Shown here one piece after another: positions 3,151 to 12,138 of a stretch of DNA of 12,138 nt; the first letter of the stretch is position 1; the number at the start of each line of letters is the position of its first letter. Where the stretch lies: contig NZ_JPSQ01000003.1 in NCBI RefSeq assembly GCF_001189415.1, forward strand, positions 1-12,138. The letters run 5' to 3'. The notes beneath the pieces were generated by a model, which saw nothing but the letters and a program-made list of their open reading frames with translations, had not been told where the DNA came from and ran no database searches. The DNA comes from Candidatus Phytoplasma phoenicium (lineage in GTDB: Bacteria; Bacillota_I; Bacilli_A; Acholeplasmatales; Acholeplasmataceae). The translations under genes and the position numbers were made by a program.

Positions 3151-3311
3151 TAAAATTATAAATAATTATATAAAAAAATATATAATAAAAAGTATAAAAA
3201 ATTTTTTTAGTTAATTGCCGAAATTATTGTATTGGATGGGTGTTTTATTTCATCAAAATTTTTGCTTTTTAATGAAAATAAAAGAGAATGAGTAAAAAAT
3301 TAAAATAATTT
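3151..3311 (+). other. Intergenic AT-rich spacer, no gene seen
   Basis: This is the gap between tilS and the next gene, with no convincing coding frame. It begins with an almost pure A/T stretch that includes a run of A followed by T near 3197-3209, which could act as a weak terminator but is not a stable hairpin. A possible weak promoter is TTGCTT near 3263 with GAGAAT about 16 bases later. Neither element is strong enough to call on its own. Confidence 0.35.
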
Positions 3312-4993: not shown

Positions 4994-5013
4994 TATGAGG
5001 TTGTTTAGTTAAT

Positions 5014-6922
5014 ATGAAATAAAAAGTTATTATTTTAAGAGTCTCCATCGAAAGCTAAAATTATTAATAGTTATTTTAATAATGAAATTTTATTTTTATG
5101 TTCTAAAGGTCATATTAGATATTTATCTTTTAAAGTAAAAGATTGTTTAGGAGTTAATATTAAAAAAGATTTTCAACCTGATTATCGCATTATCCCTCAA
5201 AAAAAATTAGTTGAACAATTAATTAAAAAAAAGAAACGTAAATAAGTTTTTTTTAACCACTGATTTAGTTCGTGAAGGAGGAAGCTATTTCTTGGGTATT
5301 TAGCTCAAGTATTAAAATTAGATAAAAATGATAAAAATCGTATCGTTTTTAATGAAATTACTAAAAATGTTGTCAAAGAAGTTTTTCAAAAACCATGTCT
5401 GATCAAATAGTCTTTAGTATTTTTTCAAGAAACTCGTAGAATATTATAGAGATTGCATCATTGGTTTTAAATTATCAGGTTTAGTGCAAAGAATTAAATC
5501 TAAATCCGCAGGTCAAGTTAAAAATTATCAGTAGCTTTAAAATTAATTGTAAATTTGGAAGAAAAAAGACAAAAATTCATACCCGAAGTATCCCCCCATT
5601 TGATTAGAGTTATTTTTAAACACTTTTAAATAAATTTAGTCGTTAAACTTAAAAATCATAAAATTAAAGAAATGGAAGCACAGGAAATTTTTTCTAAAAT
5701 CAAAAAAAGATCCTTTATGTTGGATCGAAATCAAAACTAATATAGTTACGAGTGAATCGCCTAAACCTTTTATCACATAAACTTTACAACAAAAATCTTT
5801 CAAACATTTGTCGATAAATTCCAAACAAACTATGATAAATACTCAAAAATTTTATGAAGGGATCGAAATAGAAGGAAAATTATCAGGATTAATTACTTAT
5901 ATGAGAACAAATTCATACCGATTCTTACTTTTATTTATGCAAACAACTCAAGAATTTATCAAAAATAAATATGTTCAAAAATATGTTAAGTTGTATTACA
6001 AACATAAAAACAATAATAGTCAAAATTCACATTAAACCATTCACCCTACTGATATTACACAAGCGCCTGATAAGTTAAAACAATACTTAAATAAATATGA
6101 ATGTTCTTTATATAATATCATTTATCAACTTACCATAGCGAGTATGATGTTCTAAAGCGATGATTCAAAAAACTCAATATTTTTTACTGTTCAATAATAT
6201 ATTTTGTTGCAGAAGATAATCAAATAAATTTTGATGGTTATTATAAAAGTTTCGATAATCATTTTAAAAATATATTTTGGCCTTCTTTGGAATTAAACAA
6301 ATTATATATCCCACAGAAAATTAAAAGTCTAAAAAAAGAGATTACACCAATCACCACATCTCGCTTTACGGAAGCTTCTTTAATTAAGGAATTAAAACGT
6401 TTAAAAATTGCCTGTCCGTCTACTTATAGTAAAATTATCGAAACTTTAAAAAAATGTTTTTATGTTGAAATCAAAGATAAAGAATTTGTTTGTACAGAAA
6501 GAGGGATATCTATTGTCAAACTTTTAGATAAATTTTTTCCTTCTATTATTAACACTCATTATACAGTTCAAATTGAACAACAATTAGATGATATTTATAA
6601 TGGAAAAATTGATAGAATAACATTGTTAAAGGATTTTTATAATCAATTTGAACAATTTTTATTAGTTGCTAAACAAAATATTAAAAAAACTCCACCTGTC
6701 ATGGTGAAATACAAATGTTCTCTTTGCAATGATTTTTTAATAATAATACGCAAAGGTAGTTATTGTTATTTTTTATGTTGTAGTAAATGTCAACAATGTA
6801 AAAATATTGTTTCTTTAAAAGAAAAAACAAACAACCCAAAAAAGTTGATGAAAAAAAATAATTATCACAAAAATTTTATTTTTATATTAAATTTTTATGC
6901 GCTTATTAAACCAAATTTATAG
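5014..6922 (+). pseudogene. topA: Decayed DNA topoisomerase I
   Basis: TopA is the type IA enzyme that relaxes negative supercoils. Pieces in all three forward frames line up in order with the family. After MK and an immediate TAA come KVIIL, then in another frame ESPSKAK, KGHIRYLS and the LGVNIKKDFQPDYRII region (5039-5245). Next is TTDLVREGG, matching TOPRIM TDPDREGE but with key acids replaced (near 5253-5280), then LAQVLKLDKND (5300 on), ETRRIL with a stop, KSKSAGQV, and PKPFIT with LQQKSF. YEGIEIEGK and the catalytic-tyrosine motif GLITYMRTNSYR follow near 5855-5920, then HPTDITQAPDKLKQYL near 6040. The last part (6164-6922) is an uninterrupted frame with RFTEASLIKELKRL, CPSTYSKII and a C4 zinc ribbon (CSLC...CSKCQQC). 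There are at least eight frameshifts or stops plus catalytic losses, so it cannot make an active enzyme. There are no gene-like alternatives on the other strand. Confidence 0.92.
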
Positions 6923-7992: not shown

Positions 7993-8034
7993 GAAAGTCT
8001 CGACAGAACACGAATAAAATTATATGTGAAAGGC

Positions 8035-8040
8035 GAAGAG
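8035..8040 (+). promoter_or_regulatory. Ribosome binding site choosing the ffh start
   Basis: GAAGAG lies 6 bases before ATG 8047. The longer frame starts at a GTG (8026) that would translate this site itself and has no Shine-Dalgarno sequence upstream, so ATG 8047 is preferred. Confidence 0.65.
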
Positions 8041-8046
8041 TATATA

Positions 8047-9402
8047 ATGAGTTTTTTAAAAGATGGTTTTAAAAAGATTATGGATAAAATTAAAGGGAAA
8101 AAATATATTAAACAACAAGACATTGAAACTATTATGGAGGATATACGTTTATCTTTTATTGAAGCTGATGTTAATTATGAAGTCATTGCCAAATTTAATC
8201 ATTTGATTCAACAAAAAACTTTAAATCAACGAGTGGTCCATAAATTAGATGCACAAGAACAAGTGATTAAAATAATTAAAGATACTTTAGTAGAAATTTT
8301 AGGTATTAAAAATATACCACTTCAATTAAATAATTCATTTGATACCATCATGTTAATAGGATTACAAGGAAGTGGAAAAACTACTAATGCAGGTAAATTA
8401 TCTTTTTTAATTAATCGTAAATATCAAAAAAAAGTTTTACTCATTGCAGCTGATATTTATCGATTTGGTGCTATCGAACAATTAATAAATATAGGAAAAC
8501 AAATTAATATTGAAGTTTTTTTTCAAAACAATGAAAATGTTTTGAATATTGTACGTAATGGTTTACAACATGCTATGTATAATGGATTTGAAACAGTGAT
8601 TATAGATACAGCTGGTCGTTTATCTATTGAATCTGAAATGATAGAAGAAATTCAACAAATTAAAAAAATTGCTAATCCTTCTGAAATATTGATTGTTGTT
8701 GATGCTCTTTTAGGACAACAATCAGTCAATATTGTCCAAAGTTTTCATCAACAATTAAATGCTACAGGAGTGATTTTAACCAAAATGGATGCAGATATCA
8801 AAGGAGGAGTAGCTTTATCAATTAAATATATGACTCAACTGCCTATCAAATTTATTTCTTCTTCAGAAAAACATAATGATGATAATTTTGAAATTTTTTA
8901 TCCTGAACGTATAGTGTCTAGATTATTAAATATGGGCGATTTATTAACCTTAATTGAAAATGTAGAAGATAAAATTAATACTGAACAAGATAAAAACACA
9001 TTACATAGTTTATTGAAAAATGATTATAATTATTACGATTTAGAAAAACAATTAAAACTTTTAAAAAAAATGGGTTCTATGAAAAAAATATTACAATTTA
9101 TTCCAGGATTAGGTTCCAAAATGAAAAATATGCCTATCATAGAAGAAGATATTTTAAAACGTTTTCAATCAATTATTAATAGTATGACTAAAGAGGAAAA
9201 ACAACAACCTCAATTAATTGCAAATAATAATAGAAGACGCAATCGTATTTCTCAAGGTTCAGGTCATAAATTAAACGATATCTATTCTTTAATCCAATTT
9301 ATTCAAAAACAAAAACAAATAGCTAAACAAATAGGAAATTTCAAAGATGATGAAAATGATGTTTTTAATCCAGAAAATTTATTAAATAAATTTATTAATT
9401 AA
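8047..9402 (+). CDS. ffh: Signal recognition particle protein Ffh (SRP54)
   Basis: Ffh binds the SRP RNA and signal sequences emerging from the ribosome, and pairs with FtsY. From ATG 8047 it has 451 residues, the usual size. The N domain (1-95) includes the family stretch IRLSFIEADVNYEV. The G domain has G1 GLQGSGKTT (105-113), G2 DIYRFGAIEQL (136-146), G3 DTAGRL (187-192), VDALLGQQ (218-225) and G4 TKMD (245-248), followed by the intact KGGVALSI. The M domain (about 296-432) starts with MGDLLTLIE and carries the RNA-binding RRRNRISQGSG (396-406). One oddity is that the closing motif usually written GTGEK reads SSSEK (271-275), followed by a loosened HNDDNFEIF before the conserved YPERIVSRLLNMGD. 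The protein is otherwise complete. It is the downstream partner of ftsY. Confidence 0.96.
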   Translation: MSFLKDGFKKIMDKIKGKKYIKQQDIETIMEDIRLSFIEADVNYEVIAKFNHLIQQKTLNQRVVHKLDAQEQVIKIIKDTLVEILGIKNIPLQLNNSFDTIMLIGLQGSGKTTNAGKLSFLINRKYQKKVLLIAADIYRFGAIEQLINIGKQINIEVFFQNNENVLNIVRNGLQHAMYNGFETVIIDTAGRLSIESEMIEEIQQIKKIANPSEILIVVDALLGQQSVNIVQSFHQQLNATGVILTKMDADIKGGVALSIKYMTQLPIKFISSSEKHNDDNFEIFYPERIVSRLLNMGDLLTLIENVEDKINTEQDKNTLHSLLKNDYNYYDLEKQLKLLKKMGSMKKILQFIPGLGSKMKNMPIIEEDILKRFQSIINSMTKEEKQQPQLIANNNRRRNRISQGSGHKLNDIYSLIQFIQKQKQIAKQIGNFKDDENDVFNPENLLNKFIN

Positions 9403-9507
9403 AATGGTTCATTTCTGAAAAAATAGAAATAAGTAGTTACATAATAGTTATAAATTATCAAATTTTTTGCATTATCAAAGTTGTTTTTCTTATTAACCAT
9501 TTTAATT
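9397..9507 (+). repeat. 13-base inverted repeat flanking the start of the post-ffh spacer
   Basis: AATTAAAATGGTT at 9397-9409, which includes the ffh stop codon, is the exact reverse complement of AACCATTTTAATT at 9495-9507. The 85-base interior holds a smaller hairpin, ATTTCT/AGAAAT (9411-9430). The outer arms could close a long stem-loop at the transcript end, or be chance in AT-rich DNA. The GG/CC core makes chance somewhat less likely. Confidence 0.35.
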
Positions 9508-9698
9508 TTATATATGAATTATTTTTAATCATAAATAATTTTCGGAGATTTTATGATGGCGAAAATATAAGGAAAATGTATTGAAATGATGATAAATTAA
9601 AATCATAATGATATGAAAATATCTCAAAATAATTTTAAAAATAAAAAAAATCAATCTTTTAAGAGGAGGTATATTATTAAAGTTCAATTTAAAATCTA
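9403..9698 (+). other. Spacer between ffh and the polA-AAA fusion
   Basis: No real gene is visible. It contains the inverted repeat described separately, a minute frame (MMAKI, ATG 9553) preceded by GGAG at 9544, and a strong ribosome-binding sequence near 9663 without a proper start behind it. These look like remnants of earlier coding sequence. No tRNA or SRP RNA pattern could be made out by eye. Confidence 0.4.
9663..9669 (+). promoter_or_regulatory. Orphan strong Shine-Dalgarno sequence
   Basis: GAGGAGG matches the 16S anti-Shine-Dalgarno very well, but no ATG, GTG or TTG lies within the normal distance. The next ATG (9699) is about 29 bases away. Only an ATT at 9677 is suitably placed, and that frame stops after a few codons. 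It may be the site of a lost gene start or a leader. Confidence 0.4.
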
Positions 9699-9725
9699 AT
9701 GAAAGAGAGAGTTGTCGTAAGAAGT

Positions 9726-11123
9726 ATGGAACGTTTAGTTTTGGTAGATGGTAATTCTTTGGTTTTTCGAGCTTATTATGCTACCGCTTATAAAAAAACA
9801 ATTTTAATGCAAAACTATCAGGGTGAAAATATTAATGCATTGATTGTTTTTATCAATATGTTTAAAAAAATCTTAACTTCTTATACAAAAGATTATATTT
9901 GTGTAGTTTTTGATTCTCCTCAAAAAACGAAAAAACATCAAATTTATGAACAGTATAAACAAAAACGTCTAGTGACAACTTTATCATTAACAGAACAAAT
10001 TGATTTGATTAAGCAATATGATCAACGAATTGATGCACTTAATTTACTTATTCAACAAAAAGAAGAAGAAATCAACACCAAAGAAAATTTATCAGAAGAA
10101 CAAATAAAAAAGTTAAAAGAAGAAATTTTACATTTCAAAAATAAACTTAATTTAGAATTTCAAATTGTCTCTACACAAAAAACACAATTATTAGAAATAA
10201 GGAAACAATTACAACAATCCGATTTAAAATTATTAGATTTAAAAAAAGAAATTCAAGCATCACATAATTTAACTGAAAAGCAAAAACAACTATATATTAC
10301 GGAAATAGCAGAAAAACAAACTCAAATTAAAATGTTGAGTGAACAATTATATTCACAAGAAAAAAAAGTTGAATTAGCGATAGGATATACACAAGCCTAT
10401 ACAGAATTTTTTAAATCAACTATTGAGACACAAAATTTAATAGTAGATAAATTGAATAAAAATCTTGATATTTGGATGAAAATACAAAATAAACAAAAAC
10501 AACAATTAACAACAGAAGATTCTCGATTGGCTCAACAATTTATGAAGAATACAAAAGATTTTCCGGGTTTTAAAAATGTTATTGGGATGAAACCAATTAT
10601 TTCACAATTAAAAGAAGTTTTAGATTATTTGCTGCATAAAGATTTATATAAATCTATGGGTTTAAAAAAAACACAAAAAGGTATTTTGTTATATGGCCCT
10701 CCAGGAACAGGAAAAACTTTTTTAGCTCAGGTTTTTGCTAAAGAATCTGGATTACCTTTTTTTGCTATTGTCCCCTCTAATAGTATGAAAGAAATAGAAG
10801 ATGAATTTAAAAAAGCTAGACGAAATAGTCCTTCTGTTGTTTTTGTTGATGAAGCTGAAGAAGTTCTTAAATCTAGAACATCAGAAAAATTAGAAGAAGG
10901 AGATGCTAAAAAAACTAATTTATTTTTAACTGAAATAGATGGTGTTAAAACTGATCCAGACAATCCTATTTGTTTTATTGCCGCTACTAATCATTTTAAT
11001 AAAATTGATGATGCTATTAAATCTCGTTTAGAAGCTAAATACATTGGTTATTTATATACTGAAGAACTATTAAGAAATCATAAATCATATAATGCTAACA
11101 AGAATAAATATGCTAATAATTGA
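9726..11123 (+). CDS. Chimeric protein: N-terminus of DNA polymerase I fused to coiled coil and AAA+ ATPase
   Basis: Residues 1-82 (from ATG 9726) are the start of the PolA 5'-3' exonuclease domain: RLVLVDGNSLVFRAYYA, then CVVFDSPQKTKKHQIYEQYKQKR. The polymerase match stops there (about 9968), before most metal-binding acids of the nuclease, so no nuclease activity is expected. From VTTLSLTEQ onward the protein is a long Gln/Lys/Glu heptad-like coiled coil (about 86-270). An AAA+ module follows, with FPGFKNVIGM, Walker A GPPGTGKT (324-331), Walker B VVFVDEAE (371-378), sensor-1 ATN and the Arg-finger SRLEAK. The AAA+ part resembles ATPases of phytoplasma potential mobile units, which normally have their own membrane-anchored N-terminus. 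Here that is replaced. It ends at a double TGA, soon after the Arg finger and probably before the lid domain is complete, and the frame reopens beyond. An alternative start is ATG 9699, but the polA family N-terminus favours 9726. It could be a true fusion, a pseudogene or an assembly join. Confidence 0.85.
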   Translation: MERLVLVDGNSLVFRAYYATAYKKTILMQNYQGENINALIVFINMFKKILTSYTKDYICVVFDSPQKTKKHQIYEQYKQKRLVTTLSLTEQIDLIKQYDQRIDALNLLIQQKEEEINTKENLSEEQIKKLKEEILHFKNKLNLEFQIVSTQKTQLLEIRKQLQQSDLKLLDLKKEIQASHNLTEKQKQLYITEIAEKQTQIKMLSEQLYSQEKKVELAIGYTQAYTEFFKSTIETQNLIVDKLNKNLDIWMKIQNKQKQQLTTEDSRLAQQFMKNTKDFPGFKNVIGMKPIISQLKEVLDYLLHKDLYKSMGLKKTQKGILLYGPPGTGKTFLAQVFAKESGLPFFAIVPSNSMKEIEDEFKKARRNSPSVVFVDEAEEVLKSRTSEKLEEGDAKKTNLFLTEIDGVKTDPDNPICFIAATNHFNKIDDAIKSRLEAKYIGYLYTEELLRNHKSYNANKNKYANN

Positions 11124-11126
11124 TGA

Positions 11127-12138
11127 CAATATTTTGAAAAAAAAATTATTGATATATTTGTTTCTAAACATGTTGATAATCATTTGAATTATTTTTCCGA
11201 AGATATTTTCACATCTTTACAACAATTAATAAAAAATTTTATGGATAATTTCCAAGAAAAACAATTTTATTATCATTTTTTATTACAAAAAAAATATTTT
11301 TTATTAGAAGATTTTATTTTGCAGCAAAAAATTAATCGACATCTTATTATTCTAAAATATTATGATCAAAAAATGACTTTGATAAATAATCAACTACATA
11401 AAATAAAATTAAAATATAATCACAACAATTCTCAAATATTTTTGGAGTTAGAAGATAAAATTAAAAAGTATGAAAAATTTTATACTTATTTAAAAAAAGA
11501 ATTGTTTGAATTGCAAAAAAAACATATTAAACAAAAACAACCATATAATCAAAAAATAAAAAAATTAAAAAGACAACAGAACAACATGTTACAATATCAT
11601 AATAAGTTACAAATTAAAATATCACATGTTTATTCTAATATTAGAAATTATCAAAACAAATCAAATCATTACTTAAATAAATTTTATTTATGGTTTTGGA
11701 AAAAAAAATTATTATCTTATTGGTCTGCTATGTGTAATAATTTTATATTAAATGTTAAACAAATAGAATTACAGAATTATCGTGTTTTTAATCAAGTAGA
11801 AAAAATATACAATGATAATACCGTGCATCAACAAAAATTCTTACAACAACAGACGCAAAAAATAATTACATGGAACTTCGATAATTTTTTATCAATTATT
11901 GAACAAATGCATATATTTGATATCAAAAATATCATAACTTTTTATAAAGAAACTGAAAATCAATTACATATGGAAATAAAGGATATTAGACAAAAAATCA
12001 ATCATAAAGTTCAATACACTAATTACAAAAATAATTTAATTGAAGCTAATTTAAATGATGCTTTTGAATCATTAAAAACAGAATTAAAACATAAAATCAA
12101 TTATAAAAAAATACAAAAAACACAACAAATTAATCAAC
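11127..12138 (+). CDS. Open frame after tandem TGA stops, K/N/Q-rich coiled protein (partial, runs off the window)
   Basis: Directly after the two TGA codons the same reading frame stays open for 337 codons to the right edge. That is far longer than chance allows at this base composition, so it is or recently was coding. The first in-frame ATG is 11241, with a TTG at 11184, and neither has a clear ribosome-binding site. The encoded sequence is helical and polar, with coiled-coil stretches (around 11385-11630), a WFWKKKLLSYW segment near 11691-11732 and no recognised enzyme motif. No signal peptide or membrane segment is evident. The opening residues QYFEKKIIDIFVSK look like the continuation of a helical lid of the preceding AAA+ protein. 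The simplest reading is a detached C-terminal part of the upstream gene, cut by nonsense mutations. A separate gene with a weak start is also possible. Confidence 0.6.

Follow-up and report, generated by a model that had tools for sequence, protein, structure and literature searches.

The window analyzed here, 12,138 nucleotides of 'Candidatus Phytoplasma phoenicium' DNA, is an entire contig (C23) of an assembly of 344,581 bases in 77 contigs with an estimated completeness of 75.9%. The contig carries, in this order, aspS, tilS, a gene with no family assignment, ylqF, topA in a decayed state, ftsY, ffh and an open reading frame (ORF) in which parts of different genes are fused (Table 1). The ffh gene was matched by NCBIfam TIGR00959 with an E value of 8.4e-138 and 459.8 bits, which is below the cut-off of 473.2. 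No convincing relative of the 323-nt gap downstream of ffh (9403-9725) was found among 23 loci. An Rfam scan of the window gave no match at gathering score, and a Pfam and NCBIfam scan of the window left the ORFs at 3310 and 11184 without a family. The named relatives are phytoplasmas.

Table 1. Positions of ffh, the fused ORF and its constituent pieces in the window
Feature	Positions	Strand	Remarks
ffh	8026..9402	+	Open; TIGR00959
Fused ORF	9699..11123 including stop	+	474 codons; likely exonuclease start ATG 9726
Piece 1, N-terminal 5'-3' exonuclease	9726..10019	+	Clear to 9968, ambiguous 9969-10019; from P0013 identity and exonuclease HMM
Piece 2, giant-type coiled coil and AAA front half with Walker A	9969..10766	+	Start ambiguous 9969-10019; P-loop from 10695
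Piece 3, AAA rear half of the small (~440 aa) type	10767..11054	+	86/96 identical to P0002
Junction zone 3	11055..11192	+	Two in-frame stops TGA TGA (11121-11126); overlapping small-AAA and piece-4 matches
Piece 4, central part of a coiled-coil protein of ~1,000 aa	11130..12138	+	Same frame, open to contig end

An earlier note on this DNA had described an in-frame fusion of an exonuclease to an AAA+ ATPase, and such a fusion is indeed present as a single open frame containing both Pfam domains. The domain 5_3_exonuc_N (PF02739) was found in ORF residues 12-109 (E 5.5e-24) and AAA (PF00004) in residues 329-447 (E 8.9e-26). Both lie far over their cut-offs, and the call of two domains is thus not a chance result. 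The exonuclease domain is incomplete, with only model positions 1-93 of 164 represented. The feature had been taken to end at 10600, which is too early as the ORF reaches 11123 and a fragment of a further gene continues to the contig end. Based on the comparisons below, the ORF is very probably a three-part mosaic of an exonuclease, a giant coiled-coil AAA protein and a small AAA protein, with the fragment of the fourth gene lying beyond the stops.

A search of 5.8 billion proteins gave 3188 matches, and among the 120 of these that were listed, some with incomplete Pfam annotation, PF02739 and PF00004 occurred together in the window's own protein only; the same 120 contained no homologue of the whole fusion. 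A literature search found no publication title on this fusion, from which we do not claim that it is unpublished.

Descent of the pieces and placement of the junctions

The alignment to P0013, a protein of 286 aa with both exonuclease domains (PF02739 and PF01367), begins at ORF residue 10, corresponding to base 9726. Residues 10-90 are identical to P0013 at 77 of 81 positions, while residues 91-107 agree at 9 of 17; over the same columns P0013 and P0091 agree at 12 of 17. The alignment of a profile built from 14 phytoplasma exonucleases ends at residue 107, and confident alignment of a giant-type profile (16 sequences) sets in at about residue 97. Since the identity to P0013 drops and the two profiles overlap there, junction 1 was placed at 9969-10019. 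The stretch found in this region (QIxLIKxY) is compatible with both parents. An abrupt switch near base 9968 had been proposed previously, and the break was found directly adjoining that position with the frame kept.

An EADD block was found past the position of the junction in all 17 aligned relatives and is missing from the fused ORF. We take these residues, the acidic active-site block of the exonuclease, to bind metal. PF01367 was not matched in the fused ORF by Pfam, and the family A polymerase domain (PF00476) is absent both from the ORF and from the incomplete assembly.

The exonuclease domain was found in 23 of the 24 other genomes of the genus that were searched, with no match in G020. 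Twelve of the 24 genomes have an exonuclease ORF of 277-306 aa, eight have one of PolA length (686-852 aa), and in three it is a short open frame (126, 127, and 36 aa). Of the 23 loci that carry the exonuclease, 22 have it 3' of ffh and in the same orientation, one of them with a gap of ~1.5 kb; for the exception, L082, no ffh was seen on its 5.3-kb contig. Because the exonuclease follows ffh in the relatives, piece 1 sits at the usual place.

The earlier note had assigned the N-terminus to polA. The exonuclease assignment holds, but the nearest donor is a standalone, ffh-linked 5'-3' exonuclease. A full Pol I parent was rejected since P0013 and P0091, to which the piece is closest, are standalone exonucleases, even though eight of the 24 genomes have an ORF of PolA length. 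Two of the PolA-length proteins (L076 5697-7940 and L083 9555-12095) were found by Pfam to have the exonuclease domains and a 3'-5'-exonuclease-like domain. For DNA_pol_A they scored 29.0 and 20.3 bits, below the cut-off of 34.3, which suggests a decaying polymerase domain. In support of the earlier note, the incomplete assembly yielded no other domain of an exonuclease or of Pol A.

In the related phytoplasma genomes G022 and G011 (L094 1-233, reverse strand; L095 9098-9226) the exonuclease is cut at about residue 111 by a common insertion. The two insertions are identical at 121 of 129 positions, have a G+C content of 0.45 compared to 0.20 in the flank, and extend to the contig edge. They resembled the start of a group II intron, although no Rfam family was matched at cut-off.

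The best relative found for piece 2 is P0144, with 77 of 102 identical residues over ORF residues 255-356 and a weaker match in the coiled coil. Over residues 285-356 P0144 is identical at 60 of 72 positions, whereas to the right only 32 of 96 are identical. The 16 giant-type and 15 small-type sequences compared were chosen for alignment and are a subset of those found. All 16 giant-type sequences fit residues 285-356 (38-60 of 72) better than residues 357-452 (30-38 of 96), while the opposite was found for all 15 small-type sequences (22-33 of 72 and 55-86 of 96, respectively). The switch from giant to small type thus falls at residues 356/357, about bases 10764-10775, and joins two paralogous AAA domains in register. 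The giant profile alone runs straight across the switch (residues 76-484, 285.5 bits), and the evidence for it therefore comes from comparing giant with small type. The ORF, like the small type, lacks the 8-residue YVGE block of the giants. A coiled coil and an AAA+ domain joined to the exonuclease had been recognized before, but these do not derive from a single AAA+ gene; junction 2 had escaped the earlier note.

Walker A (GPPGTGKT, from 10695) and Walker B (VVFVDEAEE) are both present, and the motifs GPPGTGKT, DEAEE, and ATN are retained in the fused ORF; the AAA+ roles we give them are assumed. The C-terminal lid of the AAA domain is missing, with the clear match to both types fading after about residue 452. 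Of 28 other genomes of the genus, at least 21 have a giant ORF of 934-2965 aa. The longest among these, L085 12920-19501 in G017 (2965 aa), contains by eye long, near-identical tandem coiled-coil repeats, because of which the length of the giant ORF may differ among strains. When the coiled-coil stretch was used as the sole query, in a search covering proteins up to ~830 aa, only the window itself was matched.

At the 3' end a small-AAA query was alignable past both stops up to 11192, while the profile of piece 4 extends back to 11064. Due to this overlap of the alignments junction 3 could be placed only within its zone. Bases 11130-12134 match residues 479-812 of L118, a coiled-coil protein of which 943 aa are available. 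Proteins of the L118 type have no Pfam family and were found in 18 of 28 other genomes of the genus.

The source draft, the parent genes and topA

The assembly is almost certainly the draft of 'Ca. Phytoplasma phoenicium' strain SA213. The published draft has 78 contigs and 354 kbp with a mean coverage of 38-fold (PMC4518686), and its size is given as 345,965 bp in PMC11349051. Primer inmpF1, which is reported to be specific to the almond witches'-broom group 16SrIX-B, has one exact match in the assembly (C55:8510-8535), while the reversed primer used as control has none. Against this assignment, P0144 is named 'Ca. P. phoenicium' and is just 60/72 identical over residues 285-356; if the genome is that of SA213, P0144 must come from another strain or be misnamed.

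According to the published descriptions the SA213 draft was made from 150-base single reads, pre-selected by mapping to GenBank Acholeplasmataceae and assembled in CLC with standard parameters. In PMC11349051 it is described as contaminated and highly incomplete, and non-phytoplasma scaffolds were taken out. The earlier note had set the fusion in a reduced genome, which is misleading for a draft in this state.

Two further loci of the draft deserve mention. The argS gene on contig C8 (L146 5157-5186) lacks its N-terminal part, the match to PF00750 starting at 91 of 349. It borders directly on the 5' end of znuA, which lies on the opposite strand, and is a second cut core gene in the draft. An ORF of 207 aa on contig C14 (L154 3936-4556) contains two SpoVG stretches.

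When the parent proteins were used as queries against the incomplete assembly, the exonuclease matched this locus only, up to query residue 105, and the 943-aa protein L118 likewise matched this locus only. The giant query matched here with residues 712-1079, and more weakly at an FtsH gene (C36) and at a 742-aa AAA protein (C67). The small AAA query matched here with E 1.9e-72 and at three other places with 7.7e-24 or weaker. The complementary parts of the parent genes were found nowhere else in the incomplete assembly. As the assembly lacks roughly a quarter of the genome, if not more, and as the draft is a short-read, incomplete assembly from read subsets chosen by mapping, the missing parents are weak evidence of loss.

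A 3' part of the exonuclease was looked for upstream of ackA on C16, an idea taken from G004 where the exonuclease lies beside a gene identified by eye as ackA, and no match was found. In G019, G017, and G004 the exonuclease gene and the giant gene are no more than ~10 kb apart, and they are in tandem only in G019. A single deletion between such neighbors was rejected since it leaves the rear half of small type unexplained.

The topA stretch of the window (5000-6922) is a pseudogene with 10 in-frame stops (5451-6194) and frame changes, and no second match to topoisomerase I was found elsewhere in the incomplete assembly. The corresponding stretch is open in 13 of 14 relatives (607-670 aa, one of them cut by the stretch taken), the fourteenth having 564 aa. 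A review from 2011 (PMC3322544) states that TopA is contained in all phytoplasmas.

Origin of the joins

Four descents, three junction zones, a common frame and an open ORF missing the EADD block and the lid have to be accounted for. Probably the ORF is not a new working gene but either a dead relic or a product of misassembly. We favor a young, non-functional mosaic that arose by recombination within the genome, and consider this somewhat probable; that the contig end misjoins reads from four genes that are intact in the organism is the next reading in order, a serious possibility of lower probability. In the genomic mosaic, recombination and deletion would have joined pieces of four separate phytoplasma genes, all in the sense direction and sharing a frame. 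The joins would exist in the cell and may have formed by short-homology recombination between coiled-coil and between paralogous AAA sequences. The product would be inactive as an exonuclease and probably as an ATPase too.

In five of five giant/small pairs from the same genome, the exact in-register DNA in common at the switch was 4, 4, 5, 5, and 6 nt, and at most 8-12 nt were common near it. Since only 4-6 nt are common, a word-based assembler is not expected to make the join at junction 2, which speaks against a misjoin. So do the reported 38-fold mean coverage and the finding that no second copy over any junction zone was obtained when 9400-12138 was compared to its own genome (40 of 132 candidates scored). 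Elsewhere the readable parts of the draft look sound. In a control that took 50 of the 56 ORFs with 200 aa or more on 12 readable contigs, C36 and C67 not among them, no ORF fused unrelated Pfam families; two ORFs had no Pfam match, and a switch between two AAA types would go unseen in such a control. Words of ~12 nt that code for KQK (repeats D5 and D6) connect the end of piece 1 with piece 2, and piece 2 with piece 4, each time in the same frame. They are a possible site of short-homology joins and would suit recombination in the cell, being too short as an assembler's word, but such words often arise by chance in DNA this AT-rich. That two non-homologous joins agree in both strand and frame has by arithmetic a chance of ~1/36, and joins guided by similarity, or selection, are therefore favored. 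The decayed topA demonstrates real gene decay on this contig and thus tips the balance towards a genomic origin. On the other hand, a mosaic requires that four genes conserved across the genus were recently cut at one spot while their pieces remained free of stops outside zone 3, and that a domain present in 23 of 24 other genomes of the genus was interrupted. Three joins in ~1.2 kb by a contig end is also how a poor contig end looks. These points favor a misjoin, as do the making and later assessment of the draft and the argS gene on C8, which likewise is without its 5' part.

A working fusion protein, in which the start and N-terminal fold of the exonuclease form the leading part of a small hybrid AAA+ ATPase, is very unlikely. 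The 474 codons are open across three pieces, the AAA+ motifs are kept, and the exonuclease piece has retained its high identity to P0013. However, nothing remains of the EADD block and the region after it, of the AAA lid, or of the C-terminal part of either AAA parent. Two TGA codons close the frame, and a homologue of the whole fusion was not among the 120 of 3188 matches listed. We also give very little credence to an emerging gene, in which homologous exchange within the AAA fold would have produced a giant/small ATPase core and a later deletion would have supplied the start and N-terminal fold of a replication nuclease; this would amount to natural domain shuffling in a decaying genome with a product that is still translated.

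The earlier note had favored a mobile element (potential mobile unit, PMU) landing in polA, for which we see hardly any likelihood. AAA+ genes are repeated in phytoplasmas (e.g., 23 matches in G019), which is compatible with such an insertion. However, neither a transposase nor a PMU core gene was recognized among the window ORFs by Pfam and NCBIfam, judged by the core genes that PMC8923039 lists; the contig ends 1 kb past the ORF, and a PMU may lie further on. No clear element ends were found in 9000-12138, where a repeat scan gave only short AT-rich pairs. The joined piece is up to 10766 of the giant type and not of the multicopy small type. A specificity of the AAA+ part to mobile units, as implied by its name in the earlier note, was not borne out. 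The donor of the coiled coil and AAA front half is a giant gene, and within the AAA domain two AAA types are combined.

If the joins are real, the only 5'-3' exonuclease detected in 'Ca. P. phoenicium' was lost recently, in addition to the decay of topA, which would bear on the minimum replication machinery for phytoplasma life. If they are an assembly error, it is best to exclude this contig end from comparisons of gene content, where it would appear as a false novel fusion and a false loss of core genes. In either case the locus is a warning on fusions known from one draft and does not represent a new system.

Comparison with the parent proteins

The ORF and piece 4 beyond its stops resemble, each in part, four known types of phytoplasma protein. 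With the standalone exonucleases (P0013, and P0091 from Vigna little leaf phytoplasma) it shares residues 10-90 and the place after ffh, but the match ends by residue 107, without the EADD block and the PF01367 part. The giant coiled-coil AAA ATPase (P0144, C6B37_00890, 997 aa) has the coiled coil and AAA front half in common with the ORF, which lacks the long N-terminus, the YVGE block, the AAA rear half and the C-terminal region of that type. The small AAA proteins of ~440 aa (P0002, unnamed; P0004 and P0005, named 'ATP-binding protein', from Ca. P. pruni) share the AAA rear half; compared to P0002 the ORF is without the N-terminal hydrophobic segment (by eye), agrees on the left side at only 27 of 72 positions, and has lost the lid and the C-terminal part. 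Piece 4 corresponds to the middle of the conserved coiled-coil protein of ~1,000 aa represented by L118, without its 5' half and truncated at the contig end.
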